In this document: piece after piece, positions 552-35,308 of the stretch
Layout: each line of letters begins with the position of its first letter
How positions within the stretch are numbered: position 1 is the stretch's first letter
Origin: Candidatus Woesearchaeota archaeon
Lineage (GTDB): Archaea; Nanobdellota; Nanobdellia; Woesearchaeales; GW2011-AR9
Reading direction: 5' to 3'
Assembly: GCA_018302605.1 (NCBI GenBank)
Contig: JAGVZN010000010.1
Location: 129,013 to 166,852, forward strand
Length of the DNA: 37,840 nucleotides
Notes under the pieces: generated by a model
Seen by the model: only the letters and a program-made list of their open reading frames with translations
Told to the model about the DNA's origin: nothing
The model's database searches: none
Made by a program: the position numbers and the translations under genes

Positions 552-595
552 ATCTTTTGAAAAATCACGATCTTATAAAAGATTTTGGGCTGTTT

Positions 596-723
596 GCATG
601 TATTAAGTCTGTGCTGGGCAGGTCGGCCTGCCTCGTCTCGCCCAGAAGCAGAGATCAGTTGAACTGAAGAGTTATTCTCAAAGATAAGCGAGACCATTCA
701 CACAGACTTAACTTAATACATAC
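596..723. mobile_element. Element D: palindromic cloverleaf-like element (128 bp) with 8-bp TSD
   Basis: GCATGTATTAAGTCTGTG... / ...CACAGACTTAACTTAATACATAC arms; inner stems GGCAGG/CCTGCC, GTCTCGC/GCGAGAC (635-641/688-694), TCAGTT-G-AACTGA; perfect direct repeat GGCTGTTT at 588-595 and 724-731. Confidence 0.75.
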
Positions 724-764
724 GGCTGTTTCGCCCATTAACCCTTATTTCATAGTAAATAATG

Positions 765-774
765 TTTATATAAA
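765..774 (+). promoter_or_regulatory. TATA box for the 794 CDS
   Basis: TTTATATAAA about 20 nt upstream of ATG 794. Confidence 0.5.
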
Positions 775-793
775 AAAACAACATCAGACATCT

Positions 794-1774
794 ATGCCGC
801 GACCTAAAGTTTTTATCACGCGAAAAATACCGAATGCTGGCGTTGTACTCCTTAAGAAATCTTGTGATGTTCGCATCTATCCACGGGATCAGGCCATTTC
901 CCGCCAAGACTTACTCAAAGGGGTGAGATGGTGTGATGCCCTGTTGCCTCTGCTGACGGAAAAGATCGACAAAGAAGTACTTAATGTCAATCCTAACCTG
1001 AAGATTGTTGCCAACTATGCTGTCGGTTTTGATAACATCGATGTCAAATCTGCAACCAGCAGAGGTATTCCGGTAACCAATACACCTGGTGTATTAGAAG
1101 ATGCCGTCGCCGAGCATACGTTTGCTTTATTGTTCGCAATTACCAAACATCTTGTCGAAGCAGACCACTTCACGCGTACAGGAAAATACAAAAGCTGGGA
1201 ACCGCTGCTTTTCCTCGGTCCGCAGCTGAAAAGCAAAGTCTTGGGCATTGTTGGATTGGGCAGGATCGGCAGCAGCGTTGCCCAGAAAGCAGTTGCTATG
1301 GGAATGCACGTGATTTATACTGATGTCCAGCGTAATCTACCATTTGAAAAGAAATTCCATGCTCGCTTCGTTTCCAAAGAGATGCTGCTCAAAACTGCTG
1401 ATTTTGTCAGTCTGCATGTCCCGCTTCTTCCGGCGACACGTCATCTCATCGGCGCAAAAGAATTGAGGCTGATGAAACGGACGGCCTACCTGATCAATAC
1501 TTCTCGCGGCTCGGTCGTTGATGAAAAAGCGCTTGTCCACGCGTTGAAAACAAAGATGATCGCCGGCGCCGCCCTCGATGTCTATGAGTTTGAGCCAAAC
1601 CTTTCTCCGGGATTAAACAAGCTGTCTAATGTTGTCCTGACACCGCATACGGCCTCGGCAACATGGGAAGCGCGCCAGGCGATGTCGGAGATTGCCGCAA
1701 AGAATATCCTGGCTGTTCTCACTGGAAAGAAAGCGCCCAATATTGTCAATCCAGAAGTGTACCAAACCCGATGA
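794..1774 (+). CDS. D-isomer-specific 2-hydroxyacid dehydrogenase (glyoxylate reductase/phosphoglycerate dehydrogenase-like)
   Basis: Rossmann GIVGLGRIGSSVAQKA; NYAVGFDNIDV; LINTSRGSVVDEKALVHAL; TPHTAS motifs. Confidence 0.9.
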   Translation: MPRPKVFITRKIPNAGVVLLKKSCDVRIYPRDQAISRQDLLKGVRWCDALLPLLTEKIDKEVLNVNPNLKIVANYAVGFDNIDVKSATSRGIPVTNTPGVLEDAVAEHTFALLFAITKHLVEADHFTRTGKYKSWEPLLFLGPQLKSKVLGIVGLGRIGSSVAQKAVAMGMHVIYTDVQRNLPFEKKFHARFVSKEMLLKTADFVSLHVPLLPATRHLIGAKELRLMKRTAYLINTSRGSVVDEKALVHALKTKMIAGAALDVYEFEPNLSPGLNKLSNVVLTPHTASATWEARQAMSEIAAKNILAVLTGKKAPNIVNPEVYQTR

Positions 1775-1799
1775 AGCGACTTCACGCACTTTTACGGTC

Positions 1800-4319
1800 T
1801 TACTCCTCGCATGTGCCTTTCTTTTCCACATATTTCCCATCGACGCACTGCGTCCATGATTGCAGTGGTTCGTTCTCCACGATCTCGGCGGCAACGATTC
1901 CCGCCAGAGTTGAAGTTGAAGAAGAGTTGTAAAACTTATACACTGACGCAGTCGGTTTGCTCCCTTCCTGATACTTGCTTTCAAACAGGGCCATGTCTTC
2001 AAAGCCATACCCAGAACTGGAAAAGCTAATCCCAATGTAATTTATCTTTTCTGCGACAAATTGCTGAGCAATATTCGTAATCGTTAATCCTGTCGAGTAA
2101 GTGGTCCCATCTCCATCTTTATGCCAGGCAGCATCAGTCATATGAATTGCATAGACGCTTACTTCGCCTGGTCCAGCTACTCCGACAATCCCCGCCCAGT
2201 CCTTTCCCAGCATCTCCTGGAGGGAATTGAGAGAGGATTCAGGAGAGTCGCCACCCCCATCTGCTTTAATGCTTTGAACAACAATTTTCCATTCCCCATA
2301 AAGCAGAAGACCGTACTCTACCTGTTCTGCTTTTGCATCTCTAAATGTCCCCAATCCAAAATTTACTTTATCCATGGACGAGAAAATAGTTGTGCCAATC
2401 TCTTTCGAAAGCTGGCCTGCTTGATAGATTGCCCCATACATACTGCCCGTATCGTCTATCTTAAAATAGAGGACCAGTTCTTTACAGGCAACAATATCTT
2501 TGATCGGTTCACCATCATCGCAGCAGTTTTCATCAACATTGCCATCACAGTTATTGTCAATATGATCATTACAGATCTCTTCTCCCGGCTGGCCTTCAAC
2601 GGCATTGCAGACAATACTTTTACCATCTTCCGTACATACATAATTTCCTTTATCATAACATGCGCCGATGCCTACTTCGCAAGGTTTCCCCAAACCCATC
2701 TGCACATAATCCTCATCGATCAGCCCGTCACAATCATCATCCAGGCCGTTGCATACTTCAACATTTGGTTCCGGAGCATTACAAGCGATGCTGCCTTGGA
2801 AACAGATATATTCACCTGGCCCGCATTCAGTCTGACAGATGCCGTTTTCTGCCAAAGATTTATCAAGATGATGCTGGATGTCAGGCAATTCATCGGTATA
2901 GAGATCACAGTCATTATCGATTCCATCACACCACTCCAATTCTGGTTTTCCCGGTGCGGCGTTGCAGATTGTGCTCAATCCGCTTGGTGTGCAGACCATC
3001 TCGCCGATGTCCATGCACGCGCCAGCTCCCAGTGTGCATGACTGGCCAACATTATACCCATTGTCAATAACTTTGTCACAATCATCATCATAACCGTTGC
3101 AGATCTCTTCTTTCGGAAGAGGCGCACTGCAAGAGATCTGTCCGTCAATGCAAAGCCAGTCGCCGGATCCGCACGCAGAAGTGCATAGTTCTTCAATCGA
3201 TTTCAACTGGGGGGCAATATCTTCATATTCATCCGTCTGCCCGTCACAATCGTTGTCTTTCCCATCACAGATCTCTTCGCCGGAGTCTTTGGGCATCGCA
3301 TCACAATACACCTGCACCATATCGAAGAGGCATTCAAACTGCCCTTTATTGACGCATTCTCCGATGCCCACATAACAAGGCTCGCCGACCATGAAATCTT
3401 CATCTGTTTCGCCGTCGCAATCATTATCATACTTATCACAGATTTCTCCCTGTGGATAAACCGCATCACAGGCGGTAGTCGTCATTTTTCCCGCCAGAGA
3501 GTCGCAATACGTGACACTCACTCCCGGCTTGCAGATGCCGACCGTGATGTAGCTTCCCTGCTCATCCTGCAGCCCGCATTGTTGCTCGGTAAGCGGTAGG
3601 CCATCATCAATAAAGTTGTTACAATCATTATCTTTCCCATCACACACTTCTGGAGTTGGTTTTTGGGCATCACAGACCATTTTACCATCGATGCATTCTT
3701 CGTAGCCTTTCCCACAGATTGTGGAACATTTCGCGAGGAGGCCCTCATCCGTTTGCCCGTCGCAATCATCATCAACTAAATTACATAACTCTGGTGCCCC
3801 GGGGTAAACATCAGCGCCAGATACTCCCCATTCATTCTGTTCAGGATGGTCATTGCAATCATTACACTTGTTCGTATAGTTGACTTCACCTTGCGGGGGG
3901 AAGCAGTCAAAGACATTCTCACTCTTATTTCCAAAACTATCTCCATCCCGGTCAGCGCACCATGTATGTTTATTGCTGTCTGGGCAATTTTCTGGATCGT
4001 ATCCCGGCGAGACGCGCGTTTCTCCATCGTTATCTTCTGGTGTATCGGGAAAAGAAAGAATGTGAATATCCAAAGGAGAAAACGAGATACCAAAGTTGTA
4101 TCCTCCATCATCAGTGTCGATTCCGTCGCCCGATTGACCGTCTTTGGCAGATGCATCCTGCGTCGAATCGCTTGTTTTATCGTATAGTTGTGCAGTGTCT
4201 CCTTCCGGAGAGCCGGAAGAAAGAAAGTTTGGCTCATAATGGCATCCTGCTGTCAAAGCTAACGCTAGAACCAGACGGGATGTTCTTCTGGTAAAACGAT
4301 TAACTAAGGTTTCCAGCAT
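1800..4319 (-). CDS. Secreted lipobox protein with eight MopE-type Cys/Asp-rich repeats and C-terminal vWA-like domain
   Basis: N-terminus MLETLVNRFTRRTSRLVLALALTAGC (lipobox-like); repeats of the form EICDGKDNDCDGQTDE (8 counted); C-terminal LVLYFKIDDTGSMYGAIYQAG resembles a MIDAS DxxGS motif. Confidence 0.85.
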   Translation of the reverse strand: MLETLVNRFTRRTSRLVLALALTAGCHYEPNFLSSGSPEGDTAQLYDKTSDSTQDASAKDGQSGDGIDTDDGGYNFGISFSPLDIHILSFPDTPEDNDGETRVSPGYDPENCPDSNKHTWCADRDGDSFGNKSENVFDCFPPQGEVNYTNKCNDCNDHPEQNEWGVSGADVYPGAPELCNLVDDDCDGQTDEGLLAKCSTICGKGYEECIDGKMVCDAQKPTPEVCDGKDNDCNNFIDDGLPLTEQQCGLQDEQGSYITVGICKPGVSVTYCDSLAGKMTTTACDAVYPQGEICDKYDNDCDGETDEDFMVGEPCYVGIGECVNKGQFECLFDMVQVYCDAMPKDSGEEICDGKDNDCDGQTDEYEDIAPQLKSIEELCTSACGSGDWLCIDGQISCSAPLPKEEICNGYDDDCDKVIDNGYNVGQSCTLGAGACMDIGEMVCTPSGLSTICNAAPGKPELEWCDGIDNDCDLYTDELPDIQHHLDKSLAENGICQTECGPGEYICFQGSIACNAPEPNVEVCNGLDDDCDGLIDEDYVQMGLGKPCEVGIGACYDKGNYVCTEDGKSIVCNAVEGQPGEEICNDHIDNNCDGNVDENCCDDGEPIKDIVACKELVLYFKIDDTGSMYGAIYQAGQLSKEIGTTIFSSMDKVNFGLGTFRDAKAEQVEYGLLLYGEWKIVVQSIKADGGGDSPESSLNSLQEMLGKDWAGIVGVAGPGEVSVYAIHMTDAAWHKDGDGTTYSTGLTITNIAQQFVAEKINYIGISFSSSGYGFEDMALFESKYQEGSKPTASVYKFYNSSSTSTLAGIVAAEIVENEPLQSWTQCVDGKYVEKKGTCEE

Positions 4320-4453
4320 CTGCTGAGAAGACAGGCATTCCCTATTTTAAAGTGAGGCATATGCTGTATTTTGGTCTGTGCCGTCTTTGGTGGGCTCTCT
4401 GTCAAAGTAGGCAGGAGAGCTTGGATGTTTTAGAGGAGTTTGAAAAAGAGTAA

Positions 4454-4515
4454 TTTTGGTAAATATACTAAAAAGAATTAGGTTTCGAACCTAATTCTTT
4501 TGGTATATACCAAAA
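4454..4515. repeat. Long near-perfect hairpin overlapping the stop codon of the 4491-5552 CDS
   Basis: ttttggtaaatatactaaaaagaattaggttt-cg-aacctaattcttttggtatataccaaaa; AAAAGAATTAGGTTT pairs with AACCTAATTCTTTT, ATATAC with GTATAT, TTTTGGT with ACCAAAA. Confidence 0.8.
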
Positions 4516-5552
4516 TCCATAGATTTCTGTTTCCGCATTGTCTTCCATTCGATAAGCTGTTTGATCAGTCCGGGAAGAATACCGGTCCAGACAAAATGGT
4601 GGTATACCAAAATCCCGTTCCATTTCCCCAAGCTGATCACCATCGGCCGTGCTTTTGAGACGTACTCCCGCAGTTTTCTCCCTTCGGCCAGTGCTCGAAG
4701 ATTGTCGATTACTACTTCTGCCTGCTTTTCCGCTGCCTGCGCGGTCTTCTCTTCTTTGATATTGGTAATATCTCCCGCCGCGAAGATATTTGGACAGTTC
4801 GTGACTTGAAGATGTGCATTAACCTGCACGAAGCTGTCTTCAGCGAGGGTGATCTTTCCGTTTTTTTTGAGAAATTGCGAGTTGGGGGCAATACCCGTAC
4901 AGAGAAAAGCCAGATCAGCGAAAATCTCTCTTCCTTTATTGGTGGCATATTTTTTTGCCGCTGTGTCAACCACCCGCTCTTCGAAAATAATCTTGACACC
5001 GCGCCGCTGCAGAAAGCGCCGCGCATATTTCTGCGCTTTTCTTGGATTCCTTTCTAAAAGATCTTTTTTAGAGTGAATCAACGTGATTTCTTTTTCAGGA
5101 AATCTCTCGACAATTTCCGCAGCCAATTCCGTACCGACGATTCCGCCGCCGACGATTAAGACATTTTTTGCTTTTTCTAATTGGTGCGCCCATTGTTGTA
5201 ATTCACGCCCTCGGGCGGCGATGACGATGTTCTCTTCTTTGATTGGCACGGTATATCGTGATCCCGAGGCGATCACCAGGTAATCAAAGAGGTACTCCTT
5301 TCCTCCGCCAATTACCTCGTTATCGGTCACTTCTGTCACTGGTTTCCGGATGATCATCGCCGTATGGAGATAAGCCTGATGCGGCACTTCGATCCTCTGG
5401 AGATGTTTTGGCTCGACCAATGTCCGCAGTACAGACGGCGTAAATTCAAAATAATCTTTGGTGTCGAATAAAGTAACTGCAAATTCTGATTCTAATTTCC
5501 GAGCGATGTATGCTCCGGCAAATCCCCCGCCAATGATGATCAGTTGTTTCAT
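4491..5552 (-). CDS. FAD-dependent pyridine nucleotide-disulfide oxidoreductase (NDH-2-like)
   Basis: MKQLIIIGGGFAGAYIARKLE FAD-binding motif; NVLIVGGGIVGTELAAEI NAD-binding motif; NIFAAGDI motif. Confidence 0.9.
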   Translation of the reverse strand: MKQLIIIGGGFAGAYIARKLESEFAVTLFDTKDYFEFTPSVLRTLVEPKHLQRIEVPHQAYLHTAMIIRKPVTEVTDNEVIGGGKEYLFDYLVIASGSRYTVPIKEENIVIAARGRELQQWAHQLEKAKNVLIVGGGIVGTELAAEIVERFPEKEITLIHSKKDLLERNPRKAQKYARRFLQRRGVKIIFEERVVDTAAKKYATNKGREIFADLAFLCTGIAPNSQFLKKNGKITLAEDSFVQVNAHLQVTNCPNIFAAGDITNIKEEKTAQAAEKQAEVVIDNLRALAEGRKLREYVSKARPMVISLGKWNGILVYHHFVWTGILPGLIKQLIEWKTMRKQKSMDFGIYQKN

Positions 5553-6970
5553 TTTTCGTAATAGAAGCGGTCTAATGTTTTGTCACCGAAGGGGTTGATG
5601 ATGAACTCACCCGTGAACGTTAAACGAGCCCATCCTTTAATGTTTTCCCGCTCAAAGATTGGAAGGCCGAAGAGATCCGGTTTCTCGCTTTGATGTGGTT
5701 TCTTGTTTCGGATAAACGAGGAGATTAATTCAAAAATCTGCCGCAAGGCAATCTTAAGGTCTGGGTCGGCGTCAAAATGAGGCTTAATATGTGGAAATCG
5801 TTTCAGGGCTATTTCCACTGCCGTGCTTGGCGGCAGGAGATCTTTTACAGCATACATACTGATTGAGTCCATGGCTCCTTGCTCCACACTTGGCTCTATC
5901 CTTTTCCCTTTTTGCGCTCGTTCAAAAAAAAGATGGAAGCCACTAGCAACGACATAATCTTTTTCCGCAAAACTAATGGAATCAAAAACCAGAACATTAT
6001 CTGGATAAATACTTCTGTTGATAAGATCAACTAACCCCTGCAATTCTGACCACTTTTTTGGATTTACAATCACCTCAGATTCAGAGGAATATATCTCTCT
6101 TCCTCCACCGCAGGTGTGCCGTAGGAGGTACCCTTTTTTTAGCTTAGGGTAAAATTCTTGGTCCCAGAGTTCTTCTGAAACAACAGGTCTATCTGTTGCG
6201 ACCCAGCTGGACCAGCTCCCATGGCCAAAAATCACGAGATGCTGGATTGTATCATCTACCAACACGTCAAACAAGTCTTTGCTTGTCGCCGCTCGCTTGA
6301 TGATATTTGCTTTCTGCCCAAAAGCGAGTTCTAAGCGGGCAACATACAGGGGGATCAATGCTATTTGAAGAGGCCCAATCGCTTTCATGACAAAAGAATT
6401 TTCTCCATAACTGATCAGGATCGCCAGCCCTTCCTTCTTCTTAAGAGGGAGCCGTTGAGCACGTTCCAGTAATTCCCCAGCTGCCAGAGAGCTTCCACCT
6501 AAGAGCATCAACAGCAAACTGTCCCCGCTCTTCATGAAAAACTGCCTTCTACTTTTCTGTTTTTCTGTCAAATTTTTTGTTTCTTCTTCCTCACGCAACA
6601 ATTCGTCCAGCAGGGCAATAATCTGTTTGGCGTGCTTGATTTTGGCAGCCATCGTCTTCTTCTGTGCAGAAAAAGCGGCGGGCGAAATGGTCTTCGGCGC
6701 TGCGGCATTCATTTTCATCGCTGTTAATTGCTTTTGAAGATGATCTAAGTCCGTCCAAAGGCTGATGGATGCGTTCTCTATTTCTGTAGGGGCTGTTTTT
6801 TTCTGCCAGCGAAGAATAAGATTCGCTAACACTTCTATCTGATTACAGAGATCAGGCAATGCCTTTCCATCGTGTTTCAATCTGTTAAAATTGCGGATAA
6901 ATGAGATCCAGACATTCTTGAAGTCTGAACCGAACCGCTGAAGTGTACTGCGCGAGCCAATAAAAACCAT
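5549..6970 (-). CDS. Uncharacterised protein with possible clan-CD (caspase-fold) His/Cys dyad
   Basis: Segment HLVIFGHGSWSSWVATDRPVVSEELW...KGYLLRHTCGGGREIYSS: strand + GHG, then strand + Cys, as in caspase-like peptidases. Overlaps the NDH-2-like CDS by 4 bp. Confidence 0.55.
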   Translation of the reverse strand: MVFIGSRSTLQRFGSDFKNVWISFIRNFNRLKHDGKALPDLCNQIEVLANLILRWQKKTAPTEIENASISLWTDLDHLQKQLTAMKMNAAAPKTISPAAFSAQKKTMAAKIKHAKQIIALLDELLREEEETKNLTEKQKSRRQFFMKSGDSLLLMLLGGSSLAAGELLERAQRLPLKKKEGLAILISYGENSFVMKAIGPLQIALIPLYVARLELAFGQKANIIKRAATSKDLFDVLVDDTIQHLVIFGHGSWSSWVATDRPVVSEELWDQEFYPKLKKGYLLRHTCGGGREIYSSESEVIVNPKKWSELQGLVDLINRSIYPDNVLVFDSISFAEKDYVVASGFHLFFERAQKGKRIEPSVEQGAMDSISMYAVKDLLPPSTAVEIALKRFPHIKPHFDADPDLKIALRQIFELISSFIRNKKPHQSEKPDLFGLPIFERENIKGWARLTFTGEFIINPFGDKTLDRFYYEK

Positions 6971-7112
6971 AACTGAACCAAGAACAAAGTACTATATAAT
7001 CATTTCTCTCACAAAATATCCCGGTAGTATCCCGATATTATTACATGGGGTTACTTACCATTTAACCTAAACCCACATTGAAAAAATAAAAAAAATAGAA
7101 AAATCAAAATCT

Positions 7113-7286
7113 TTATTTTTTAGCGCCCATGATCCGGAACATTGTCGTGCCGCATTTTGGACACTTGCCTTTCATCGCCCTGCGCGCGACGCCGCCTTTT
7201 CCTTTCATCGCAACTTCTTTAGCATCAGCCATCTGGCGTTTTGCTTTACATTTTACACAATATGCTTCTACTGCAACTCCTGCCAT
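7113..7286 (-). CDS. Small zinc-ribbon protein, DUF5679-like
   Basis: Manual translation (57 aa, below the ORF-track cutoff): MAGVAVEAYCVKCKAKRQMADAKEVAMKGKGGVARRAMKGKCPKCGTTMFRIMGAKK; two CxxC pairs. Confidence 0.85.
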   Translation of the reverse strand: MAGVAVEAYCVKCKAKRQMADAKEVAMKGKGGVARRAMKGKCPKCGTTMFRIMGAKK

Positions 7287-8240: not shown

Positions 8241-8255
8241 CTTTCTGACAGAAAA

Positions 8256-11249: not shown

Positions 11250-11308
11250 AAGTTGATAATCTTTTTCTGATTTATATTATTTTCTGGTGTGGTAAGACGG
11301 CGATTTCC

Positions 11309-11461
11309 GGCACAATCCATTTTGTGAGTGATGGTGAGCCGTCGCTGAAGCCAATTTTAAGAAATTTCAGAGATACAGAAGAAAATTGGCCCAGTTCTAG
11401 TATTATAGCTATCCTTCAGCGACCATTTGGCGCCACCATCACTCACTTTTCGGATTGTGCC
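11309..11461 (+). mobile_element. Element A1: palindromic element (153 bp) with perfect 8-bp TSD
   Basis: GGCACAATCC...GGATTGTGCC termini; nested stems GTGAGTGATGGTG/CACCATCACTCAC, GTCGCTGAAG/CTTCAGCGAC, CCAATTTT/AAAATTGG; direct repeat CGATTTCC at 11301-11308 and 11462-11469. Confidence 0.85.
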
Positions 11462-11475
11462 CGATTTCCGAATCA

Positions 11476-11483
11476 TTTATATA
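11476..11483 (+). promoter_or_regulatory. TATA box for the 11506 CDS
   Basis: TTTATATA, 23 nt before ATG 11506; TATA core begins 17 bp after the end of A1. Confidence 0.6.
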
Positions 11484-11505: not shown

Positions 11506-12234
11506 ATGGTGGTAGAGCAGTTAAGCAATGTTCTTTATCTTACAACCGTCTCCCTCGCTCTTCTTACGGCTGTCTCCGGTCTGTTTATGCTTAACCAGCT
11601 CTTTAAGAATAAGATTAAAGACCTTTTTACAGACAAGACTTTCTTCATCTATTTCTCTTTAGTGATCGGCTACTCGCTGTATGCTTTAGGTGAATTAACC
11701 TACTACCTGATCTTTACGGTCTATGACGAAGTCCCGCCAGCGAGTATGCCCGATGTTTATTGGACATTAGGTGCTGCAACTTTGATCTTGTCGTTCTTTG
11801 CTTTTGCCTGGACTTTCCATAAGATGCATCGAGAATCCTCTAAATTAGTTATGATGGCCGTGGGTGGAGTCGTTCTTTTTGGGGCCGTGCTTTTGTATCT
11901 CCTGCAGAGCGATTTAGCTAAACTTGCGACCAGTCAAGGTCATCTTTTTGTCTCGTTCTTCTACCCGCTCGCCGACTGTTTGATCATCACCTTCGGTTCA
12001 ATCATTCCTTTATATTATTCCAAAATAGAAAATTTCCGCAGCAGCCTGTTGATGCTCTTCATCACGAGCGTCGGTATCCTGATCGCCGATCTCCTCTATA
12101 TCTCGTCGACAGCTGGATTAGAAATCGATGCATCAGGCATCCTCCATAACATCTTCTATAGTTCGGCTTATCTTCTTGCCGCGCTCGGTTTCATCACGAT
12201 GATCTTCTCAGCACGAAGAAAAATGAGTGCGTAA
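11506..12234 (+). CDS. Multi-pass membrane protein of unknown function
   Basis: MVVEQLSNVLYLTTVSLALLTAVSGLFML... about seven hydrophobic segments. Start set at 11506 because the ORF-track start (11455) lies inside element A1. Confidence 0.75.
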   Translation: MVVEQLSNVLYLTTVSLALLTAVSGLFMLNQLFKNKIKDLFTDKTFFIYFSLVIGYSLYALGELTYYLIFTVYDEVPPASMPDVYWTLGAATLILSFFAFAWTFHKMHRESSKLVMMAVGGVVLFGAVLLYLLQSDLAKLATSQGHLFVSFFYPLADCLIITFGSIIPLYYSKIENFRSSLLMLFITSVGILIADLLYISSTAGLEIDASGILHNIFYSSAYLLAALGFITMIFSARRKMSA

Positions 12235-12927: not shown

Positions 12928-13239
12928 ATGTGTCAAGCATACGAAGGAGAACGTGCAGCGATGGTCGCGTTAGAAGACGGGGTAACCATCAGAGGATTTG
13001 CTGCGGCGAGAAATGGGGTCAGTAAAGATGCAAATCCCTACGCTTGGAGTAAAAGTTATCAAAATGCGTGGGATCACGGTTGGGGATGTTGGCAAGAGAA
13101 GCTTCTTCCTTGGGCTTTAGAACAACAATATCGTAAGATGACTGATATTCCCACATCCATCAGCGCACGCGAGAAATTCAAAGAGACGCGGGATTTACCT
13201 CCTGAATTAGAAAGAATTGTTGCAATTTATAACTCTTAA
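12928..13239 (+). CDS. Small protein with ribosome-modulation-factor-like motif
   Basis: IRGFAAARNGVSKDANPYAWSKSYQNAWDHGWGCWQE resembles the RMF pattern GYxAGxxG...CPYxxxxxxxxWxxGW. Confidence 0.6.
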   Translation: MCQAYEGERAAMVALEDGVTIRGFAAARNGVSKDANPYAWSKSYQNAWDHGWGCWQEKLLPWALEQQYRKMTDIPTSISAREKFKETRDLPPELERIVAIYNS

Positions 13240-13245
13240 ATCTCT

Positions 13246-13327
13246 GGTAGTGCGAACAAATGACTGATACGCTGGACTTATTTGGGAGTAACCAGTGAGA
13301 ACCCATCAGTCAAATATGTGCATCTCC
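13246..13327. mobile_element. Element E: short palindromic element (82 bp) with perfect 8-bp TSD
   Basis: GGTAGTGCGAACAAATGACTGAT / ATCAGTCAAATATGTGCATCTCC arms; inner CTGGACT/AGTAACCAG stem; direct repeat AAATCTCT at 13238-13245 and 13328-13335. Confidence 0.65.
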
Positions 13328-13335
13328 AAATCTCT

Positions 13336-14763: not shown

Positions 14764-14827
14764 GTGATTTTAAAATGGTTTAACCGTTTAAATAGATTAT
14801 GAGAATAGAGAAGATAGATGTTTGGGA

Positions 14828-14922
14828 GCACAATCCATTTGGTGAGTGATAGTTCTGGAGAGTGCTGCTTGGCCAAGATGTTCGGTCAGTTTTGGGACTA
14901 CCACCCCTTCCACGGATTGTAC
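14828..14922 (+). mobile_element. Element A3: degenerate family-A palindromic element
   Basis: GCACAATCCATTTGGTGAGTGATAGT ... ACTACCACCCCTTCCACGGATTGTAC; imperfect 9-bp flanking repeat TGTTTGGGA / TTTTTGGGG (7/9). Confidence 0.6.
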
Positions 14923-14937
14923 TTTTTGGGGCAAATC

Positions 14938-14945
14938 TTATAAAC
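14938..14945 (+). promoter_or_regulatory. TATA box for the 14979 CDS
   Basis: TTATAAAC; TATA core begins 17 bp after the end of A3. Confidence 0.5.
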
Positions 14946-14978: not shown

Positions 14979-15983
14979 ATGGCCCTCTTTGATTACTTGA
15001 TTATCACTTTCTTGATAGGGCTTTCGGCTTTATTTTCCGGCTTGTCGTTAGGCTTAATGAGCTTGGGGCCCTATGCTTTACAACGGAAAATAAAGTTGGG
15101 GAATAAAGATGCGCAGAAAGTATACCCCCTCCGTAAGCGGGGAAACCAGCTCTTATGTACTTTATTATTAGGAAATGTCGCCGTAAATTCCACCCTTGCT
15201 GTTTTTTTGGGTTCGTTAACCCAAGGCATCATCGCCAGCCTTACCGCTACCGGATTGATTGTCATCTTCGGCGAGATCCTGCCTCAGGCTGTCTTTTCCC
15301 GCCACGCGCTGGAGTTCGGCGCGCGTTTTGCCTGGCTGGTTTCTTTTTTCTTTTACCTCTTTTATCCAGTTACCTGGCCAATTGCCTATGGCCTTGATCG
15401 CATGCTGGGGAAAGAACTTCCTGCCGTCTTTACCAAAAAAGAGTTCTCCCTGTTCATCGAACAGCAGAAAAAATTTCAGAAATCGGATATCAGGGAGCAG
15501 GAATTTTCCCTGCTGCAGCGCGGCCTGCATTTTTCAGATAAAAATGTTGGGCAAGTGATGACTCCCTGGAAGAGTACCTATCACCTCCGTCCTTCGATGC
15601 GCCTCACTCCCTCTTTGCGCGTAGAGATTCAACTGCAGGGCTGTTCGCGTATTCCCGTATATGACCCTCATGAGAAGAAAGTAGTCGGCATTTTCTTCAC
15701 TAAAGATCTGGTCAGTAAAGAATATCTTCTTCCCCTCACGGTTCGTGAGATCATGCGGCCGATAATCTTTTATATCCAGGAATCGGACAAACTTGATAAA
15801 GTATTGAATCTATTTAAAAAAAATCGTGTCCATCTCTTCGTCGTTCTCAATAGATCAGATAGAATTGTCGGCATTATTACTTTAGAAGATGTTCTGGAAG
15901 AGATTGTCGGGGAGATCCTCGATGAGCATGAAGATGAGGAGGAGATCAAAAAAGCAGCGATCCAGAGCCAAGTATTTGTTTAG
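14979..15983 (+). CDS. CNNM/CorC-type transporter (DUF21 + CBS pair)
   Basis: MALFDYLIITFLIGLSALFSGLSLGLMSL; VMTPWKSTYHL; CBS motifs VVLNRSDRIVGIITLEDVLEEIVGEILDE. Confidence 0.85.
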   Translation: MALFDYLIITFLIGLSALFSGLSLGLMSLGPYALQRKIKLGNKDAQKVYPLRKRGNQLLCTLLLGNVAVNSTLAVFLGSLTQGIIASLTATGLIVIFGEILPQAVFSRHALEFGARFAWLVSFFFYLFYPVTWPIAYGLDRMLGKELPAVFTKKEFSLFIEQQKKFQKSDIREQEFSLLQRGLHFSDKNVGQVMTPWKSTYHLRPSMRLTPSLRVEIQLQGCSRIPVYDPHEKKVVGIFFTKDLVSKEYLLPLTVREIMRPIIFYIQESDKLDKVLNLFKKNRVHLFVVLNRSDRIVGIITLEDVLEEIVGEILDEHEDEEEIKKAAIQSQVFV

Positions 15984-23106: not shown

Positions 23107-23265
23107 CAATTTGTTTACTAAAGAGAAGTCTGGAGTTCAATAATTGAATTATAGTAACTGTGAATTATTTTCGAATGTTTGTTCACAGTTACTAATCGTA
23201 AATGTGTGAACAAATGTTCGATGACTTAACACATTTACGATATGCAAACTTCTCTAAACAAATAC
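23107..23265. repeat. Element C1: cloverleaf-like palindromic element
   Basis: Arms ATTTGTTTA(ctaa)AGAGAAGT... / GCAAACTTCTCTAAACAAATAC; internal stems TTCAA/TTGAA, AGTAACTGTGAA/TTCACAGTTACT, CGTAAATGTGT/ACACATTTACG. Confidence 0.7.
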
Positions 23266-23274
23266 CTTTTGCCG

Positions 23275-23572
23275 ACACAATCCCTTTGGTGAGTGATGGT
23301 GAGCCGTCGCTGAAGCCGATTTTAAGAAATTTCAGAGATCCAGAAGAAAATCGGACCAGTTCCCGTAACGAAAACTCGCCACTCGAGCCTATCCACGGAC
23401 TTCGTCCGTGGCTTTACGGCTCTCGTATCAATTGGCGAGTTTTCGGAACAGAAAATGCGAGCTAGTGTTATTAACTCCGCACTTTGTGCGGAGCCATCTC
23501 GCATTTTCTAGTATTATAGCTATCCTTCAGCGACCATTTGGCGTCACCATCACTCACGTTTCGGATTGTGCC
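23275..23572 (+). mobile_element. Element A2: family-A palindromic element carrying a 146-bp block of two extra compound hairpins
   Basis: ACACAATCC...GGATTGTGCC termini and the same inner stems as A1, interrupted after ACCAGTTC (23362) and resuming at TAGTATTATAGCT (23509); degraded 9-bp flanking repeat CTTTTGCCG/CTGCTGCCG (7/9). Confidence 0.75.
23363..23508 (+). repeat. Two compound hairpins inserted in the A2 loop
   Basis: CGAAAACTCGCCA/TGGCGAGTTTTCG enclosing CGAGCC..CCACGGAC/GTCCGTGG..GGCTCTCG; then GAAAATGCGA/TCGCATTTTC enclosing CTCCGCA/TGCGGAG. Absent from A1. Confidence 0.75.
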
Positions 23573-23587
23573 CTGCTGCCGACAAGG

Positions 23588-23595
23588 TTATAAAT
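23588..23595 (+). promoter_or_regulatory. TATA box for the 23613 CDS
   Basis: TTATAAAT; TATA core begins 17 bp after the end of A2; ATG at 23613. Confidence 0.55.
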
Positions 23596-25306: not shown

Positions 25307-25322
25307 GCAGCCACGATTTTTC

Positions 25323-25462
25323 GGCACAGTTCGAAAAGTGAGTGATTTTCCCATTTTTAAAATAGTTGCCTATGGAGCGCATGGAGATTCTGATGAATTA
25401 TGCGGCCTTAGCCCGTGTATCTGATTTTAGATTTTTTCATCACTCAGAAAATGAACTGTGCC
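25323..25462. mobile_element. Element A4: divergent family-A element (140 bp) with perfect 8-bp TSD
   Basis: GGCACAGTTC...GAACTGTGCC perfect 10-bp TIR; GTGAGTGA / TCACTCA; direct repeat GATTTTTC at 25315-25322 and 25463-25470. Confidence 0.8.
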
Positions 25463-25476
25463 GATTTTTCATATAT

Positions 25477-25484
25477 TTTATAAG
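25477..25484 (+). promoter_or_regulatory. TATA box for the 25506 CDS
   Basis: TTTATAAG; TATA core begins 17 bp after the end of A4. Confidence 0.5.
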
Positions 25485-25505: not shown

Positions 25506-25835
25506 ATGAAACTGCTTCCCTCGCTCAAGCAACGCAAGCGCTATCTTGTTTTTAAGATCAGGGCAGAAAAAACCTTTTCCGCTTCAGAGATTCAGGAAGC
25601 CGTTGAACAGGCGTTGCAGGATTTCCTGGGGCAGTTGGGTGTGGCCAGAGCAGCTCCCCTCTTCTTTAAAGATCTCTCTCAAAACAATCAATTTGTGCTC
25701 AAAGTCAATCACCATTATGTGGATGAAGTCAAATCAGCGCTCATCCTAATCAAAAAGATTAAAAACACTCCCGTTCTCCTTCACTCAATCACTACTTCAG
25801 GCATCCTCAAGAAGGCTGCCGGAAAGATGAACTAA
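25506..25835 (+). CDS. rnp2: RNase P component Pop5/Rpp14-like
   Basis: MKLLPSLKQRKRYLVFKIRAEKTFSASEIQEAVEQALQDFLGQLGVARAAPLF. Confidence 0.75.
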   Translation: MKLLPSLKQRKRYLVFKIRAEKTFSASEIQEAVEQALQDFLGQLGVARAAPLFFKDLSQNNQFVLKVNHHYVDEVKSALILIKKIKNTPVLLHSITTSGILKKAAGKMN

Positions 25836-26595: not shown

Positions 26596-26602
26596 ACAGA
26601 AA

Positions 26603-26660
26603 GTATTTGTTTAGAGTGAATAATTCAATTATTGATCTGCAAACTTCTCTAAACAAATAC
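26603..26660. repeat. Element C2: short family-C palindrome
   Basis: GTATTTGTTTAGAG...AATAATTCAATTATT...CAAACTTCTCTAAACAAATAC. Confidence 0.7.
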
Positions 26661-26689
26661 GAAAGAAGAGAAAAGAGTGGAGGTCTATA

Positions 26690-28954: not shown

Positions 28955-28975
28955 AGACAAAGGAGCTTATCAAAA

Positions 28976-29767: not shown

Positions 29768-29985
29768 AAAAATCTGCCTCAGTTACCCCCGAATTTGAAT
29801 ATACCAAATATGAAAAAGCACGAATGATCGGCTCACGTGCCCTGCAACTATCGATGGGTGCGCCTTTCCTGATCAAGCTCGATGCTGCGGAGTTGAAGAA
29901 GATCAATTACAATTCGATCGAGATTGCCCTGCGGGAATACGACCAAGGTGTCCTGCCGATCACGGTCAAGCGGCCGGTAAGGTAG
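29764..29985 (+). CDS. rpoK: DNA-directed RNA polymerase subunit K
   Basis: YTKYEKARMIGSRALQLSMGAPFLIKLD...IALREYDQGVLPITVKRP; ATGA overlap with rrp42. Confidence 0.92.
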   Translation: MKKSASVTPEFEYTKYEKARMIGSRALQLSMGAPFLIKLDAAELKKINYNSIEIALREYDQGVLPITVKRPVR

Positions 29986-30048
29986 AAAAGTATATCTCAA
30001 CGTTTTTCTTTGCTATATTTTTTAAATCACTTCTTTTTTCTTTCCTAA

Positions 30049-30339
30049 ATGAATAACCTGATCACTGAAGAGAAACTGCACAAATACTTCTCCGTCACCG
30101 AAAAAGCCTTGGCTTTAGCCAAACAGGCCTTCGATCCGGCGCGTAACGAGCAAGCCGTGGATTTCTTCCAGATGGCCCAAGCTTATTTCAGCGATGCCCG
30201 CCATTTCCATCGGGACAAGCAGGATTTTGTCCTGGCGTTTGCTGCGCTCAATTACGCCCACGGCTGGCTGGATGCCGGCGCCAGGATCGGCTTGTTTCAG
30301 GTCAGCGATAATACGCTTTTTACTGTTGATAATCAATAG
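30049..30339 (+). CDS. DUF357-like archaeal protein
   Basis: TEEKLHKYFSVTEKALALAKQA...DFFQMAQAYFSDARHFHRDKQDFVLAFAALNYAHGWLDAGARIGLF. Confidence 0.75.
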   Translation: MNNLITEEKLHKYFSVTEKALALAKQAFDPARNEQAVDFFQMAQAYFSDARHFHRDKQDFVLAFAALNYAHGWLDAGARIGLFQVSDNTLFTVDNQ

Positions 30340-30454
30340 AATACTACTAAACAGTACTAAAACCACAAAAGATTTATATAGTACTCCTCTATTTTACCAA
30401 TAATTATCGTGAAAAGGGGTTCTTAGAGGCATTCAATAATTGGAGGAAAAGACC

Positions 30455-31243
30455 ATGATCGTTCAAAAAGATTTCCTGAATAAACTGAAGGACTTCGGCT
30501 TAAATTCGTACGAGAGCAAGCTCTGGGTAGCACTTCTCTCACGCGGTGTTTCTACTGCGGGAGAATTATCTGACATCTCTAATGTTCCCCGTTCCCGGGC
30601 GTATGATGTCCTGGAATCACTGGAAAAGAAAGGCTTTATCATCGTCAAAGTAGGCAAGCCAATTAAATATTTGGCCGTCCCTCCCACTGAAGTTATCGAA
30701 CGCGTCAAAAAACATATTGCTGAAGACGCAGAAGAGAAAGCAAAAATCCTTTCTCACCTTCATCAAAGCGAGCTCTTAAGTGAACTGAATACGCTTCATA
30801 CGGTCGGGATCAAATTAGTCGATCCTACGGATCGCAGCGGTGCATTCCGTGGTCGGGATAAAGCTTATGATCATCTGGCATCGATGATCAAGCGGGCAAA
30901 GAAAAACATCACCCTGATGACTTCTAAAGAAGGCATTGAACGCAAGCATGAGCTGTTAGGCAATCATCTTAAACGTGCTGCAAAAGCTGGCGTGGAAGTT
31001 CGGGTTTCTGTTCCGGCAACCATCGACCGGAATCTCCTTGACGAATTAAACAAGTTTGCCAAGACCCGCCAGCATAAAAATGAAACTGCCCGGTTCTGTG
31101 TTGTCGACAACAAAGAATTAATGCTCTTTTTGACCGACGACAAGGATGTGCACAAAAGTTACGATTGTGCTGTTTGGATCGAAGCGCCGTACTTTGTGGA
31201 TTACTTTAGTGCCCTCTTTGATAAAGAGTGGAAAATGAAATGA
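30455..31243 (+). CDS. TrmB-family transcriptional regulator
   Basis: LKDFGLNSYESKLWVALLSRGVSTAGELSDISNVPRSRAYDVLESLEKKGFI; C-terminal PLD-like region. Confidence 0.88.
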   Translation: MIVQKDFLNKLKDFGLNSYESKLWVALLSRGVSTAGELSDISNVPRSRAYDVLESLEKKGFIIVKVGKPIKYLAVPPTEVIERVKKHIAEDAEEKAKILSHLHQSELLSELNTLHTVGIKLVDPTDRSGAFRGRDKAYDHLASMIKRAKKNITLMTSKEGIERKHELLGNHLKRAAKAGVEVRVSVPATIDRNLLDELNKFAKTRQHKNETARFCVVDNKELMLFLTDDKDVHKSYDCAVWIEAPYFVDYFSALFDKEWKMK

Positions 31244-31261
31244 ACCGGAGAGTAAAATAAA

Positions 31262-31450
31262 ATGAATGGGATCCTGAAATCTCTTGGTGTTGCTCTTGTT
31301 GGTGCAGGGATTGGCTATGGAATTGTTAAAGCTCTTGAAGAGAGACCGCAATATACTGCAATGATGAAAGATGCGAATAATGATGGCTTCTCTGATCTAG
31401 TTATCCTCGATGATGAGAGGGGCATTATTGGTTCTGTTTTTATTCAATGA
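31262..31450 (+). CDS. Small hypothetical protein with N-terminal hydrophobic helix
   Basis: 62 aa: MNGILKSLGVALVGAGIGYGIVKALEERPQYTAMMKDANNDGFSDLVILDDERGIIGSVFIQ. Confidence 0.55.
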   Translation: MNGILKSLGVALVGAGIGYGIVKALEERPQYTAMMKDANNDGFSDLVILDDERGIIGSVFIQ

Positions 31451-31463
31451 AAATGGGTCTAAT

Positions 31464-31536
31464 ACAAGAAAGCCTAAGCTTTCTGTACAGAAATGAAATC
31501 GCGGTTTCATTTCTTGTACCCCGCAGTTCTACTGCG
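31464..31536. repeat. Cluster of consecutive hairpins
   Basis: GAAAGCctaaGCTTTC; GTACAGAAATGAAA-tcgcgg-TTTCATTTCTTGTAC; CGCAGttctaCTGCG. Confidence 0.65.
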
Positions 31537-31768
31537 ACTTACTCAAAGAAGACAGGACCATCTTTTTGTCAAGACCGATGTTGTCATGAATGACGGTATT
31601 CCTTTTTTTGTAACAAGGGATGGGTTCTATGACCCCTGGGGAACGTTCCACGATAATCAGGGGATAAAACCTGCGATGGAAGATTATTGTCCTCAATAAG
31701 ATATTTGAAGAAAATCCCGAAAAGCAGGCATCTTCAGCGATGAATGAAAGAATTTCTACTCTTTTAAT

Positions 31769-32527
31769 TTAAAATAAGCGTTCAAGACAACTGCTGATTT
31801 CATCAGATCTCTTACAAACATAAATCTCAGCTTCTTGGAGATATTCGATTGAAAGATTTCTTCTTTGTAATTGTTCTTTTATTCTCCAATTCTGCGCATC
31901 TTTTTTTGCTTCACAGATCAAAGCAGCAGCGCCTCCAGAGTCTTCCATAACGATGAGCGGGACAGAAGTTCCCACTGCGTTAAATGCCTCGTCAAGCGTC
32001 CCACTGCCGCCATTAACTAAGACCAAGACATCGGCAATTCCAGCGACATATTCCCTTCTTTCCATCATATTTTCCCCTGCCCTAACGATATCTAAGCGTC
32101 CCCGGCTGGACGATTCACCCAATTTTAAATATTCTCTCGGTGGACGATAGATTGATCTTTTTGTGATGGATGAAACAGTTTTCCCACTGAAAAATTGTGC
32201 TAGGGATTTTGGAAGCTGTATGTCCTCATCATACATTGGAACGAGAACAAAGAATCGGTCATCAAATCGGTTTTCTCCATCAAGGGGAGAGTAATAACCA
32301 TTTCTGACACATTCTCGGATTACGCCCTCATAAATATCTACGCCCACTCCAAGAACGCCTCCCGTGAAAATAAATCCTTCTCTACTATCAAGATATTTCC
32401 TCAATCGCTGTCCTATTTCGATTCCACTATCTGAGTCATATTTTGGTGATGGCATCGTGGCGCCGATAACCCCGATGAGGGTGCCCTTTTTCTGGTTACG
32501 TATCTTCCGAATGAGTTTTGGATCCAT
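31769..32527 (-). CDS. SLOG/LOG-like Rossmann protein
   Basis: GVIGATMPSPKYDSDSGIEIGQRLRKYL...FIFTGGVLGVGVDIYEG...VLVLVNGGSGTLDEAFNAV. Start taken at the internal Met (32527), 1 bp after the upstream PRTase gene. Confidence 0.8.
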   Translation of the reverse strand: MDPKLIRKIRNQKKGTLIGVIGATMPSPKYDSDSGIEIGQRLRKYLDSREGFIFTGGVLGVGVDIYEGVIRECVRNGYYSPLDGENRFDDRFFVLVPMYDEDIQLPKSLAQFFSGKTVSSITKRSIYRPPREYLKLGESSSRGRLDIVRAGENMMERREYVAGIADVLVLVNGGSGTLDEAFNAVGTSVPLIVMEDSGGAAALICEAKKDAQNWRIKEQLQRRNLSIEYLQEAEIYVCKRSDEISSCLERLF

Positions 32528-32528
32528 T

Positions 32529-33431
32529 TTATTTAAAATTATAAACATGAAAGCCGCTTTTGCCAGTTGTTTCCTTCAAACAAAAGCCACAATCACTAGA
32601 ATTTCTGACCGATGCTCCTCGAACGGAAGCTGCGCCGTATCCTTCTACTTTTCTCATAACATCATGCAATGATCTCCCCGTACAGACATAATCTTCAATA
32701 CAGATAACCCTCTTGTCTCGTGCGGCTTCCTGGATCATGGGCTCTTGTTCTGGAATGACGAGGGCACGGCTATCTCCTCTTCGCTTTGACTTTCGGATAA
32801 AGCCGACATCAACACCCAAGAGACCAGCTAATGGCATAGCGACTTCACTTGAGCCGCACGCAGCGCCCACAACATAATCAGTATGTGGTTTGTTTCCATC
32901 CAGAGAATGTTTCAAATATTCTTGAAGAAATAGAACAATATCGTTTGGGAAAATAGCGTTTCTACCAATATTACGATCTTTTTGCAAATAATTGGTAAAT
33001 GATAGTTCCTCGAACCCCAGCTTAAGTAAAGCAACACCTTCCTTAAATCTTTTTTTGTCCGGTTCTCCGGAATAGTATCCTGTCAGAAAATCAACACCCA
33101 CAGCGATTAAACCATTTAATACTGCTACTGCTTTTTTTCGTGGCTCAATCCCCATTTTTCTATTATCTATTAGACAATCATACAATGGCTGGAAAGCAGC
33201 ATAGATTGCAGCCCTGATCGTATCCGGATTGGTTATCGATTCCGCAAACGAAGCCCAGTTTCTGAAACCTTCAAACAGGCCATAGGCATTTGGGTTTCCC
33301 GAATACGGCAGTCGTCCATCAGAAATTTTCCGAAGGTTTTGTTCAATACGTCGTTTCTGTTCGCTATCCGATAGAGGTGGAAAGTGATTCCCCCCCGTTA
33401 ATGCGGTTTGAAGTAAATCTACAATGCTCAT
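32529..33431 (-). CDS. Phosphoribosyltransferase-like protein
   Basis: YVVGAACGSSEVAMPLAGLLGVDVGFIRKSKRRGDSRAL...KRVICIEDYVCTGRSLHDVM: PRPP-loop-like motif. Confidence 0.75.
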   Translation of the reverse strand: MSIVDLLQTALTGGNHFPPLSDSEQKRRIEQNLRKISDGRLPYSGNPNAYGLFEGFRNWASFAESITNPDTIRAAIYAAFQPLYDCLIDNRKMGIEPRKKAVAVLNGLIAVGVDFLTGYYSGEPDKKRFKEGVALLKLGFEELSFTNYLQKDRNIGRNAIFPNDIVLFLQEYLKHSLDGNKPHTDYVVGAACGSSEVAMPLAGLLGVDVGFIRKSKRRGDSRALVIPEQEPMIQEAARDKRVICIEDYVCTGRSLHDVMRKVEGYGAASVRGASVRNSSDCGFCLKETTGKSGFHVYNFK

Positions 33432-33540
33432 CTGAAGTGATATTTGACAGTTCTTTATAAATATTTTGTTGAATACTCCTCAATAATAGTAACCAAATTG
33501 CCCCGACACGTTTATATTCTCTGATCTTCTCCTTCTCTGT

Positions 33541-33885
33541 ATGCCACTCAAACAAGTCATCCTTGTCCGTCAGGATCTCAAGCTTCCCAAAGGCAAACTC
33601 GCTGCCCAGGCAGCCCATGCTTCTGTGGAAGCTGTCTTGAAATCAGATCCGAAAAATGTCAAAGCCTGGCGTAATGAAGGGATGGCCAAGATCGTGCTTA
33701 AAGTCAAAGACGAAAAAGAATTAATCGCTTATTTCCAGAAAGCAAAAGAGTGCGGGCTTGTTTCTTCGCTGATTACTGATGCCGGCAGAACTGTCGTCGC
33801 TCCGGGCACAAAGACCTGCGCAGCTATCGGGCCGGCTGAAGAAGAGGAGATTGATGCACTTACCGGAACATTATCTCTTCTTTAA
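33541..33885 (+). CDS. pth2: Peptidyl-tRNA hydrolase Pth2
   Basis: MPLKQVILVRQDLKLPKGKLAAQAAHASVEAVL; TDAGRTVVAPGTKTCAAIGPAEEEEIDALTG. Confidence 0.95.
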   Translation: MPLKQVILVRQDLKLPKGKLAAQAAHASVEAVLKSDPKNVKAWRNEGMAKIVLKVKDEKELIAYFQKAKECGLVSSLITDAGRTVVAPGTKTCAAIGPAEEEEIDALTGTLSLL

Positions 33886-33888
33886 TGT

Positions 33889-34404
33889 CTATTCATTCCA
33901 TGTTCGATATTCCGTTGCTTTGAGAACGAGGCATGCTGGTTCGAGCAGGATGTCGGCAAGCTCCAGCACTTTTTGTTGATTTTTTACTTGATATTCCTGC
34001 GGAGGATCACTCTCGATCTTCACGAGAAGGCGCGCGTTATTTCCATCGTTGATATCGGGGAAAACGAGATGATATTCGGCGAAAACTCCCCTCTGTTTTG
34101 AACGCAGATCCAGCTGAAGCATTGGTCTTTCATAGGCAAAAAGGTCGAGGCGCATTTCTGCACCGCCTTCAATAGAAAGCCCGTGAATTAACGCATCTGC
34201 ATTCCTCCGTGGCGTTCCAAAACGCTTTACTCCCTGATAGGTTGCTTTGATTTTCTCTACCCGGTCGTAATCGGAGCAGACTCGTGCGGCATATTGTTGG
34301 GCGTTTTCATTGGGAAGCGGGGCAATCACTTGCGGACTGCTGCAACCCACAATCAGTGCTGCTAATCCGGTCATCGTCCATTTGTGAAGTACAGAATAGC
34401 TCAT
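33889..34404 (-). CDS. Putative lipoprotein, paralogue of the 34513-35001 protein
   Basis: MTGLAALIVGCSSPQ lipobox-like start; shared VCSDYDRVEKIKATYQGVKRFGTPRR / QVCSGYSRTRKLEIVYDIVKRKGNSRR region. Confidence 0.65.
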   Translation of the reverse strand: MSYSVLHKWTMTGLAALIVGCSSPQVIAPLPNENAQQYAARVCSDYDRVEKIKATYQGVKRFGTPRRNADALIHGLSIEGGAEMRLDLFAYERPMLQLDLRSKQRGVFAEYHLVFPDINDGNNARLLVKIESDPPQEYQVKNQQKVLELADILLEPACLVLKATEYRTWNE

Positions 34405-34512
34405 TGTCAGTAGCGGTGAGCAGCGTGTACATAAATATTTCCTATATGCTTTATTTCTTTCTCGAGAACGGCTTTCTGCAGCTTGCTACTGTTGGTTTTT
34501 TCATTTCTTAAC

Positions 34513-35001
34513 TCAATCTGCTTTTTTCTGCAAGGCAGTACAGGATATGTAAAGAAGAGTATCAGCCAAGCGTTCAATAACTGCTCGCTCTTTCTCTTCA
34601 TAGGAAAGAGCATCATGCGGGGCGATCGCCAGATGCATTTCATTTTCATATTTTACATCCGGAAAAGAGAGGGCATACTCCGTCGTCCCGCCCTCATCTT
34701 GTTGGGAAAGGATCAGATACAAAGAGGCATCTCCGTATGCTAGAAGTTCGATGGCCGTGTCATCATCCCTTTGAATCACAATTTGATGAAGCAATCCATC
34801 CCGACGGGAATTACCTTTCCGCTTTACAATATCATAAACTATTTCCAATTTTCTGGTTCTGCTGTAACCGCTACAGACCTGTTCTGCTTCTTTGGCGACA
34901 TCCACCAATGGAAATAGTTCTCTCTGTGGTGTTGCACTACAGCCGAGGACCAATGCTGCCAATCCGTTAACCGCTGCTTTTTTGAGGGTCAAATAATTCA
35001 T
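34513..35001 (-). CDS. Putative lipoprotein, paralogue of the 33889-34404 protein
   Basis: MNYLTLKKAAVNGLAALVLGCSATPQ lipobox-like start; start set at internal Met because the upstream ORF extension overlaps element C3. Confidence 0.65.
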   Translation of the reverse strand: MNYLTLKKAAVNGLAALVLGCSATPQRELFPLVDVAKEAEQVCSGYSRTRKLEIVYDIVKRKGNSRRDGLLHQIVIQRDDDTAIELLAYGDASLYLILSQQDEGGTTEYALSFPDVKYENEMHLAIAPHDALSYEEKERAVIERLADTLLYISCTALQKKAD

Positions 35002-35037
35002 TAAAGCCCGGGTAGAACAGTTCTTCATAAATGTTTC

Positions 35038-35078
35038 GAGAAGTTTGAATAATTCAATTATTTGTTTACAAACTTCTC
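35038..35078. repeat. Element C3: short family-C palindrome
   Basis: GAGAAGTTTG-AATAATTCAATTATT-tgtttaCAAACTTCTC. Confidence 0.7.
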
Positions 35079-35132
35079 TTTCCTCTTGGCGTAGGGAAAT
35101 AGTTTCGGGATAACACATACGTACGCTTCGTC

Positions 35133-35285
35133 GGCTCTGTAGAAAATCTCGAAAAAGTCAGCCTGGCCGTTGCCTTCGTGCTTCTCCAGCTACTCAGAGG
35201 ATAGTTAAGAAGCACCAATAACTGTTGGAGATTGCAGTTCTCAGGCAACCTCTTGGCCAGGCGGCTGAATTTTTTCTACAGAGCC
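35133..35285. mobile_element. Element B1: palindromic cloverleaf-like element (153 bp) with perfect 9-bp TSD
   Basis: GGCTCTGTAGAAAAT...ATTTTTTCTACAGAGCC termini; inner TCAGCC/GGCTGA, GTTGCC/GGCAAC, TGCTTCT/AGAAGCA, AACTG/CAGTT stems; direct repeat CGCTTCGTC at 35124-35132 and 35286-35294. Confidence 0.85.
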
Positions 35286-35300
35286 CGCTTCGTCAAAAGC

Positions 35301-35308
35301 TTTATAAA
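35301..35308 (+). promoter_or_regulatory. TATA box for rpl44e
   Basis: TTTATAAA; TATA core begins 18 bp after the end of B1; ATG at 35332. Confidence 0.65.

Follow-up and report, generated by a model that had tools for sequence, protein, structure and literature searches.

Promoter-targeted insertion is already known in some bacteria, a precedent that the original prediction did not name, and in yeast. At sigma-A promoters, the elements TnGBS, ISLre2 and some ISKra4 insert 15–17 bp ahead of the −35 box; by analogy with Ty3, they were proposed to contact the initiation complex (PMC3942029). The Ty3 integrase contacts TBP and Brf1 (PMC8632968). For ISH6, a preference for AT-rich promoter regions in archaea has been put forward but not demonstrated (PMC3942029). 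No report of promoter-targeted transposition in archaea was found in the literature, with few subscription papers covered.

The DNA under study (the window) is a stretch of 37,840 nucleotides from a Candidatus Woesearchaeota genome (C2:129013-166852; host genome of 1.16 Mb in 32 contigs). As shown in Table 1, it carries six hairpin elements, A1 to A4, B1 and D, whose predicted coordinates agreed with the sequence to within 1 bp. The predicted spacing between element and TATA (17 bp for A1–A4, 18 for B1 and 19 for D) agreed with the sequence too. Inverted-repeat ends and a flanking direct repeat could be seen in 6/6 elements; the direct repeats of A2 and A3 are imperfect (6/8). Four strands were folded (A1, D, B1 and A4, with A1 and B1 taken without the outermost 3 bases). 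The hairpins of A1, D and B1 were far stronger than those of shuffled sequences (z of −8.8, −5.9 and −5.1, respectively), and that of A4 was weaker (z of −3.6).

Table 1. Elements, target duplications and BRE+TATA motifs of the window, with motif scores and offsets from the register
Feature	Position	Strand	Description
D	596..723	-	128 bp, tips GYATGTATTAAGT
D duplication GGCTGTTT	588-595 / 724-731		exact, 8 bp
BRE+TATA at D	573..586	-	minus-strand gene below position 551; motif 5.7, offset +1
A1, MITE	11309..11461	+	153 bp, tips GGCACAATCC, inverted ends
A1 left target duplication CGATTTCC	11301..11308	.	same letters as 11462-11469
A1 right target duplication CGATTTCC	11462..11469	.	adjoins BRE
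BRE+TATA next to A1, GAATCATTTATATA	11470..11483	+	motif 7.9, offset 0; then ORF 11506-12234
F, IS1-type MITE	13246..13327	.	between convergent genes, not promoter-placed
F duplication AAATCTCT	13238-13245 / 13328-13335		exact, 8 bp
A3, degenerate A-type	14827..14923	+	97 bp; imperfect duplication TGTTTGGG/TTTTGGGG
BRE+TATA CAAATCTTATAAAC at A3	14932..14945	+	promoter of CNNM/CBS gene 14979-15983
A2, A-type with additional inner hairpins	23274..23572	+	299 bp; imperfect duplication CTTTTGCC/CTGCTGCC
BRE+TATA GACAAGGTTATAAA at A2	23581..23594	+	motif 4.0, offset 0
A4	25323..25462	+	140 bp, tips GGCACAGTTC
A4 duplication GATTTTTC	25315-25322 / 25463-25470		exact, 8 bp
BRE+TATA ATATATTTTATAAG at A4	25471..25484	+	RNase P Rpp14/Pop5 gene 25506-25835; motif 3.2, offset 0
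B1	35133..35285	+	153 bp, tips GGCTCTGTAGAAAA
B1 duplication CGCTTCGTC	35124-35132 / 35286-35294		exact, 9 bp
BRE+TATA AAAAGCTTTATAAA at B1	35295..35308	+	ribosomal protein L44e gene 35332-35640; motif 8.5, offset 0
B-family left half, truncated	37641..37728	+	93% identity to B1 left half

A genome of the same genus (G002) is collinear with the window and lacks all six elements, which are therefore insertions; empty sites in 6/6 cases bear out what the original prediction had held in this respect. At the A1 and B1 sites the homology to G002 is regained at the TATA-side duplication or beside it, and at the A4 site the alignment runs on across the empty site. The D locus aligns weakly. BRE/TATA sequences are kept in the orthologous G002 promoters of A1 (there GAATCCTTTATATA, without the element), A3, A4 and B1, and none was found in the ortholog of A2. 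Among other features of the window, the 839-aa minus-strand ORF at 1800-4319 has regular internal repeats about 170 nt apart (D2/D3) and no NCBIfam match. The neighbouring minus-strand ORFs 35896-36693 and 36759-37580 have a common 125-nt stretch of 74% identity; the former belongs to no Pfam family found and the latter gave a weak phosphoribosyltransferase match, while neither matches NCBIfam.

A sequence search of the 1.16-Mb host genome gave 33 matches to A, 31 to B, 8 to the A4 type and 40 to D. Verified copies were catalogued as paired tips flanked by a target duplication, 8 bp long for A and D and 9 bp long for B, with no more than 1 mismatch. This yielded 58 pairs, of which 57 were kept (15 A, 20 B, 18 D and 4 of E, a D-like set with tips GTATTTGTTTAG); an A pair at C26:12644, whose tips are unlike A, was attributed to chance and left out. 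Given their inverted ends, duplications of fixed length and dispersed copies that are missing at orthologous sites, A, B and D are MITE-like non-autonomous DNA transposons. Database matches carrying the A tip came mostly from Woesearchaeota MAGs. In the MAG DeMMO3_35, many contigs (L133-L229) start or stop inside an A element, indicating that A repeats fragment the assembly. An A-tipped stretch of 823 bp was also noticed in G000 (C20:3580-4402; L020, L067), with a near-exact duplication and promoter motifs on both sides. It encloses a 207-codon lipoprotein-like ORF and is possibly a cargo-carrying or composite element.

To relate the insertions to promoters, we trained a 14-bp motif by EM on 82 upstream regions of genes without a catalogued element within 300 bp. 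The learned motif, RAAANNTTTATAWA, corresponds to a BRE plus TATA box and starts 35–38 bp before the ATG in most genes having it, a distance which suggests that transcripts are largely leaderless. On the flanks of the elements, the motif begins at the first base past the duplication. For copies having a motif, the ATG of the next ORF (at least 55 aa) mostly follows 34–40 bp after the first base of the motif, and free promoters show the same spacing. Among the 53 duplication-verified A, B and D copies in the host, 33 have it in exact register with a score of at least 5, and 45 with a score of at least 2. The fixed spacing to TATA claimed from the window is thus seen genome-wide as a sharp peak: at a score of at least 2, the outer edge of the duplication is no more than 2 bp away from the first base of the BRE in 48/53 copies. 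When all 57 verified copies are taken, the motif lies against the duplication (≤3 bp, score >2) in 50. Controls were confined to a 226-kb mosaic of loci around the elements. Here, exact register with a score of at least 5 occurred at 0.33% of 59,643 noncoding positions and at 0.88% of the 12,881 noncoding positions lying ≤120 bp upstream of an ORF; within 2 bp and at a score of at least 2, the rates were 4.5% (noncoding) and 8.6% (gene-upstream). Comparison of 33/53 with 0.88% gives a binomial p of about 2e-54, with copies treated as independent and controls coming from the same neighbourhoods. A can face the promoter with either end and its orientation is free, which indicates that the target, not the element, sets the position.

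The same peak in distance was found in other Woesearchaeota genera. Across 115 genomes, A-type ends were detected in 9 further genera within the same family. Scored with the host-trained motif, 12 of 17 paired A copies from other genomes exceeded 5 and 9 of these 12 lay at offset 0, as did 33 of the 44 single A ends (117 in total) that exceeded this score. A D copy in G014 had a motif of 10.8 at offset 0. We did not count E as targeted, since only 2/4 of its host copies (the exceptions being C25:5588 and C32:27838) and 0/5 copies in another genome are at promoters. By eye, the sequences after two E-type sites read as intron-containing tRNA genes; ARAGORN found no tRNA genes on the loci covering these two sites. 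In the window, the E hairpin repeat (GTATTTGTTTAG...AGAGAAGTTTGC) occurs at 26603-26660, 23120-23262, 35040-35081 and 37735-37757, and elsewhere only some E copies have a target duplication or are at promoters.

A motif is lacking on both sides of five of the 53 A, B and D copies (C12:7201, C17:105, C2:50510, C4:5986 and C2:94300). Four of them adjoin the tip of another element exactly across the 8–9 bp duplication, and C17:105, at a contig start, is separated by 7 bp from a further A-type end. In total, 11 catalogued elements adjoin another tip at the duplication edge, and at C12:7012-7361 two elements are surrounded by three copies of the 8-mer GCTGGTTA. Such stacks would be expected if one promoter were hit repeatedly; the promoter past the neighbour was seen only at C12 and C4, where the neighbouring element is itself catalogued with a motif.

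An internal contrast to the promoter-placed A, B and D elements is provided by IS1-type copies of the same genome, two in number. One of them, F, lies in the window (Table 1), has tips GGTAGTGCG...GACTGATA and resembles IS1; its motif score, determined on one side, was −2.9 at offset 0 and did not exceed 1.6 at offsets of up to 3 bp. The second copy is located inside a D element (L091:1362-1487). Several sequences similar to F were seen in G003. A 785-bp IS1 element in G019 (L234:1134-1918) has an 8-bp duplication, ACTTTATA, and is apparently inserted in a TATA-like sequence.

In our preferred reading, which we consider probable, DDE transposases act in trans on the MITEs and find the target via the transcription machinery. 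The transposase would dock on promoter-bound TBP-TFB and make staggered cuts 8–9 bp apart immediately upstream of the BRE, so that the duplicated target would end at the first BRE base. The BRE/TATA and the TATA-side duplication would survive, and the promoter could therefore be hit again, giving rise to tandem stacks. By analogy with Ty3, we infer that the ruler is DNA-bound TBP-TFB instead of bare sequence. In favour of this reading, the duplicated targets share only a weak consensus. Selection removes insertions on the TATA-gene side, and we count this against steering.

Alternatively, the transposase may read the BRE/TATA DNA itself, by its sequence or bendability, with no need for transcription factors. 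We regard this as rather unlikely. In its favour, the motif alone predicts the register, and the information sits in the BRE and TATA positions. At position −1, all of 47 sites have C or A and none has T, a preference slightly stronger than at free promoters. Against direct reading, true promoters are more frequent among occupied motifs than among free noncoding motifs of equal score. An ORF starts 26–75 bp downstream of 34/43 occupied motifs vs. 85/180 unoccupied noncoding ones (score of at least 5; Fisher p of 1.6e-4). At the same time, occupied promoters are no stronger than free ones (median score of 6.8 vs. 7.4), and the register is common to families with different tips. Reading of a near-symmetric TATA alone would not in itself confine insertions to the upstream side; selection, however, could do so.

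It is very improbable that the elements are regulatory cassettes kept for gene control with a functional spacing, the other explanation offered by the original prediction. The fixed distance to TATA, the strong hairpins and the presence of several copies per genome are what such cassettes would show, but target duplications are exact and 6/6 orthologous G002 sites are empty, with the promoter kept at four. The copies are specific to lineages and free in orientation, and one promoter can carry a stack of two different elements that share an 8-bp duplication. The targets are mixed housekeeping genes: Pfam matches were obtained for 9/10 downstream proteins scanned, including methionyl- and class II tRNA synthetases, tRNA nucleotidyltransferase, iPGM, class II aldolase and a RIO-domain protein, and the window targets are RNase P Rpp14/Pop5, L44e and the CNNM/CBS protein. 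A later effect of the elements on expression is compatible with these data. Least probable is random insertion with selection sparing harmless places, which in a compact genome lie just upstream of promoters: no verified element is in an ORF (0 catalogued elements inside ORFs of at least 90 aa) and housekeeping genes are among the targets, but a one-to-two-base register in 48 copies is unexpected against 0.9% at random gene-upstream positions, a spike is observed in place of the predicted broad offsets upstream of the BRE, identical 8 bp are re-used in stacks, and the IS1-type elements of the same genome are in a convergent gap and inside D.

As to transposases, no match (E ≤ 0.001) was found in the host for PF12762 (IS1595), PF01610 (ISL3), PF03400 (IS1), PF00872 (IS256) or PF13610 (IS6), which means that the partner is missing from the 90%-complete assembly, was lost, or is of another family. 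PF00872 had no match in 13 genomes. Loci of relatives with tips 500–3500 bp apart and an exact duplication contained no A-type autonomous copy, and none of the long ORFs behind unpaired tips was recognised as a transposase. G002, in turn, contains a 1013-bp element (L287:1077-2089) with an 8-bp duplication, TGGGTGCG, and an IS240/IS6-type DDE domain (PF13610, E of 2e-14). Its transposase has a stop among the codons after the likely start and matched the NCBIfam IS6 model NF033587 with an E of 2e-22 and 79.8 bits, under the 125-bit cut-off. The element deviates from the BRE register by no more than 1 bp (motif of 7.9 at −1 and 7.4 at +1), and a gene starts 37 bp further on. Its 26-bp tip is identical to the A4 tip at 17/26 positions (shuffle p of 2e-4) and to other A tips at 13–16/26. 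The flanks of other IS6-like loci (L286, L288-L291) had no convincing ends. In viral contigs, neither an exact match to the A tip nor a match to the L287 transposase by its peptide patterns was found.

According to a review, IS6 elements have tips starting from GG that contain the motifs cTGTt and caaa, and their repeats are of 8 bp (PMC7986276); a 9-bp duplication is given for the archaeal IS6 member ISH15 (PMC6807381). These tip motifs are close in B, partial in A4 and none in D; the duplication is 8 bp in A, D and the L287 element and 9 bp in B. No IS6 transposase is present within A, B or D. On the basis of the tip and register likeness of the L287 element and of these descriptions, A and B are plausibly IS6-like and driven by an IS6-like transposase. 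The claim of three unrelated families is thus only partly right: the tips of A and B are both plausibly IS6-like, and those of D are not. IS1 was also considered as the source of A and rejected: IS1 tips likewise end in GA[CG]TGAT, but those of IS1 in relatives match A at ≤11/26 positions, the host lacks PF03400, and true IS1-type copies are not at promoters. We tentatively entertain, with some doubt, that at least two unrelated DPANN transposon lineages have TBP-TFB-guided integration, evolved independently or shared.

Insertion at the upstream edge of the BRE lets the elements spread without breaking genes. The insertions form a natural footprint of the promoter complex, with most verified copies marking BRE/TATA to 1–2 bases, and promoters of uncultured archaea can thus be read from the elements. 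The system is a simple one for studying how a transposase reads an initiation complex, and a candidate gene-sparing, site-directed insertion tool for archaea.

Compared with known systems, the elements are, like the archaeal MITEs of Sulfolobus (SM1–SM4) and Haloquadratum, small, non-coding and present in many copies with inverted repeats; for the latter, the accessible text describes intergenic placement, with no fixed promoter spacing found there (PMC10969869). Archaeal IS6 tips (GG..cTGTt..caaa) resemble the B tips GGCTCTGTCAAAAA and, less closely, the A4 tips GGCACAGTTCGAAA (PMC7986276, PMC6807381); promoter-register targeting for IS6 was not found in the parts of these two sources that were covered. 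TnGBS/ISLre2 (p-MULT 3) and some ISKra4 (p-MULT 4) elements, which are DDE-type, likewise insert at a fixed distance upstream of promoters, and those with near-symmetric ends insert both ways, as seen here (PMC3942029). In contrast, they combine sigma-A promoters with Mutator-superfamily transposases, whereas here BRE/TATA promoters are combined with MITEs and, for A and B, plausibly IS6-like tips. Ty3 is similar in that a TBP-containing promoter complex positions integration upstream of the gene body (PMC8632968), a role that TBP/TFB may play here. Yet, Ty3 is a retrotransposon that integrates at Pol III genes, 2–3 bp upstream of the start, while here a DNA transposon integrates upstream of the BRE. 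Targeting of promoter-bound factors, as in yeast Pol III and bacterial sigma-A systems, is thus suggested for archaeal TBP/TFB promoters too; if true, DNA transposons of archaea would have a Pol II-like counterpart of Ty3/TFIIIB targeting.
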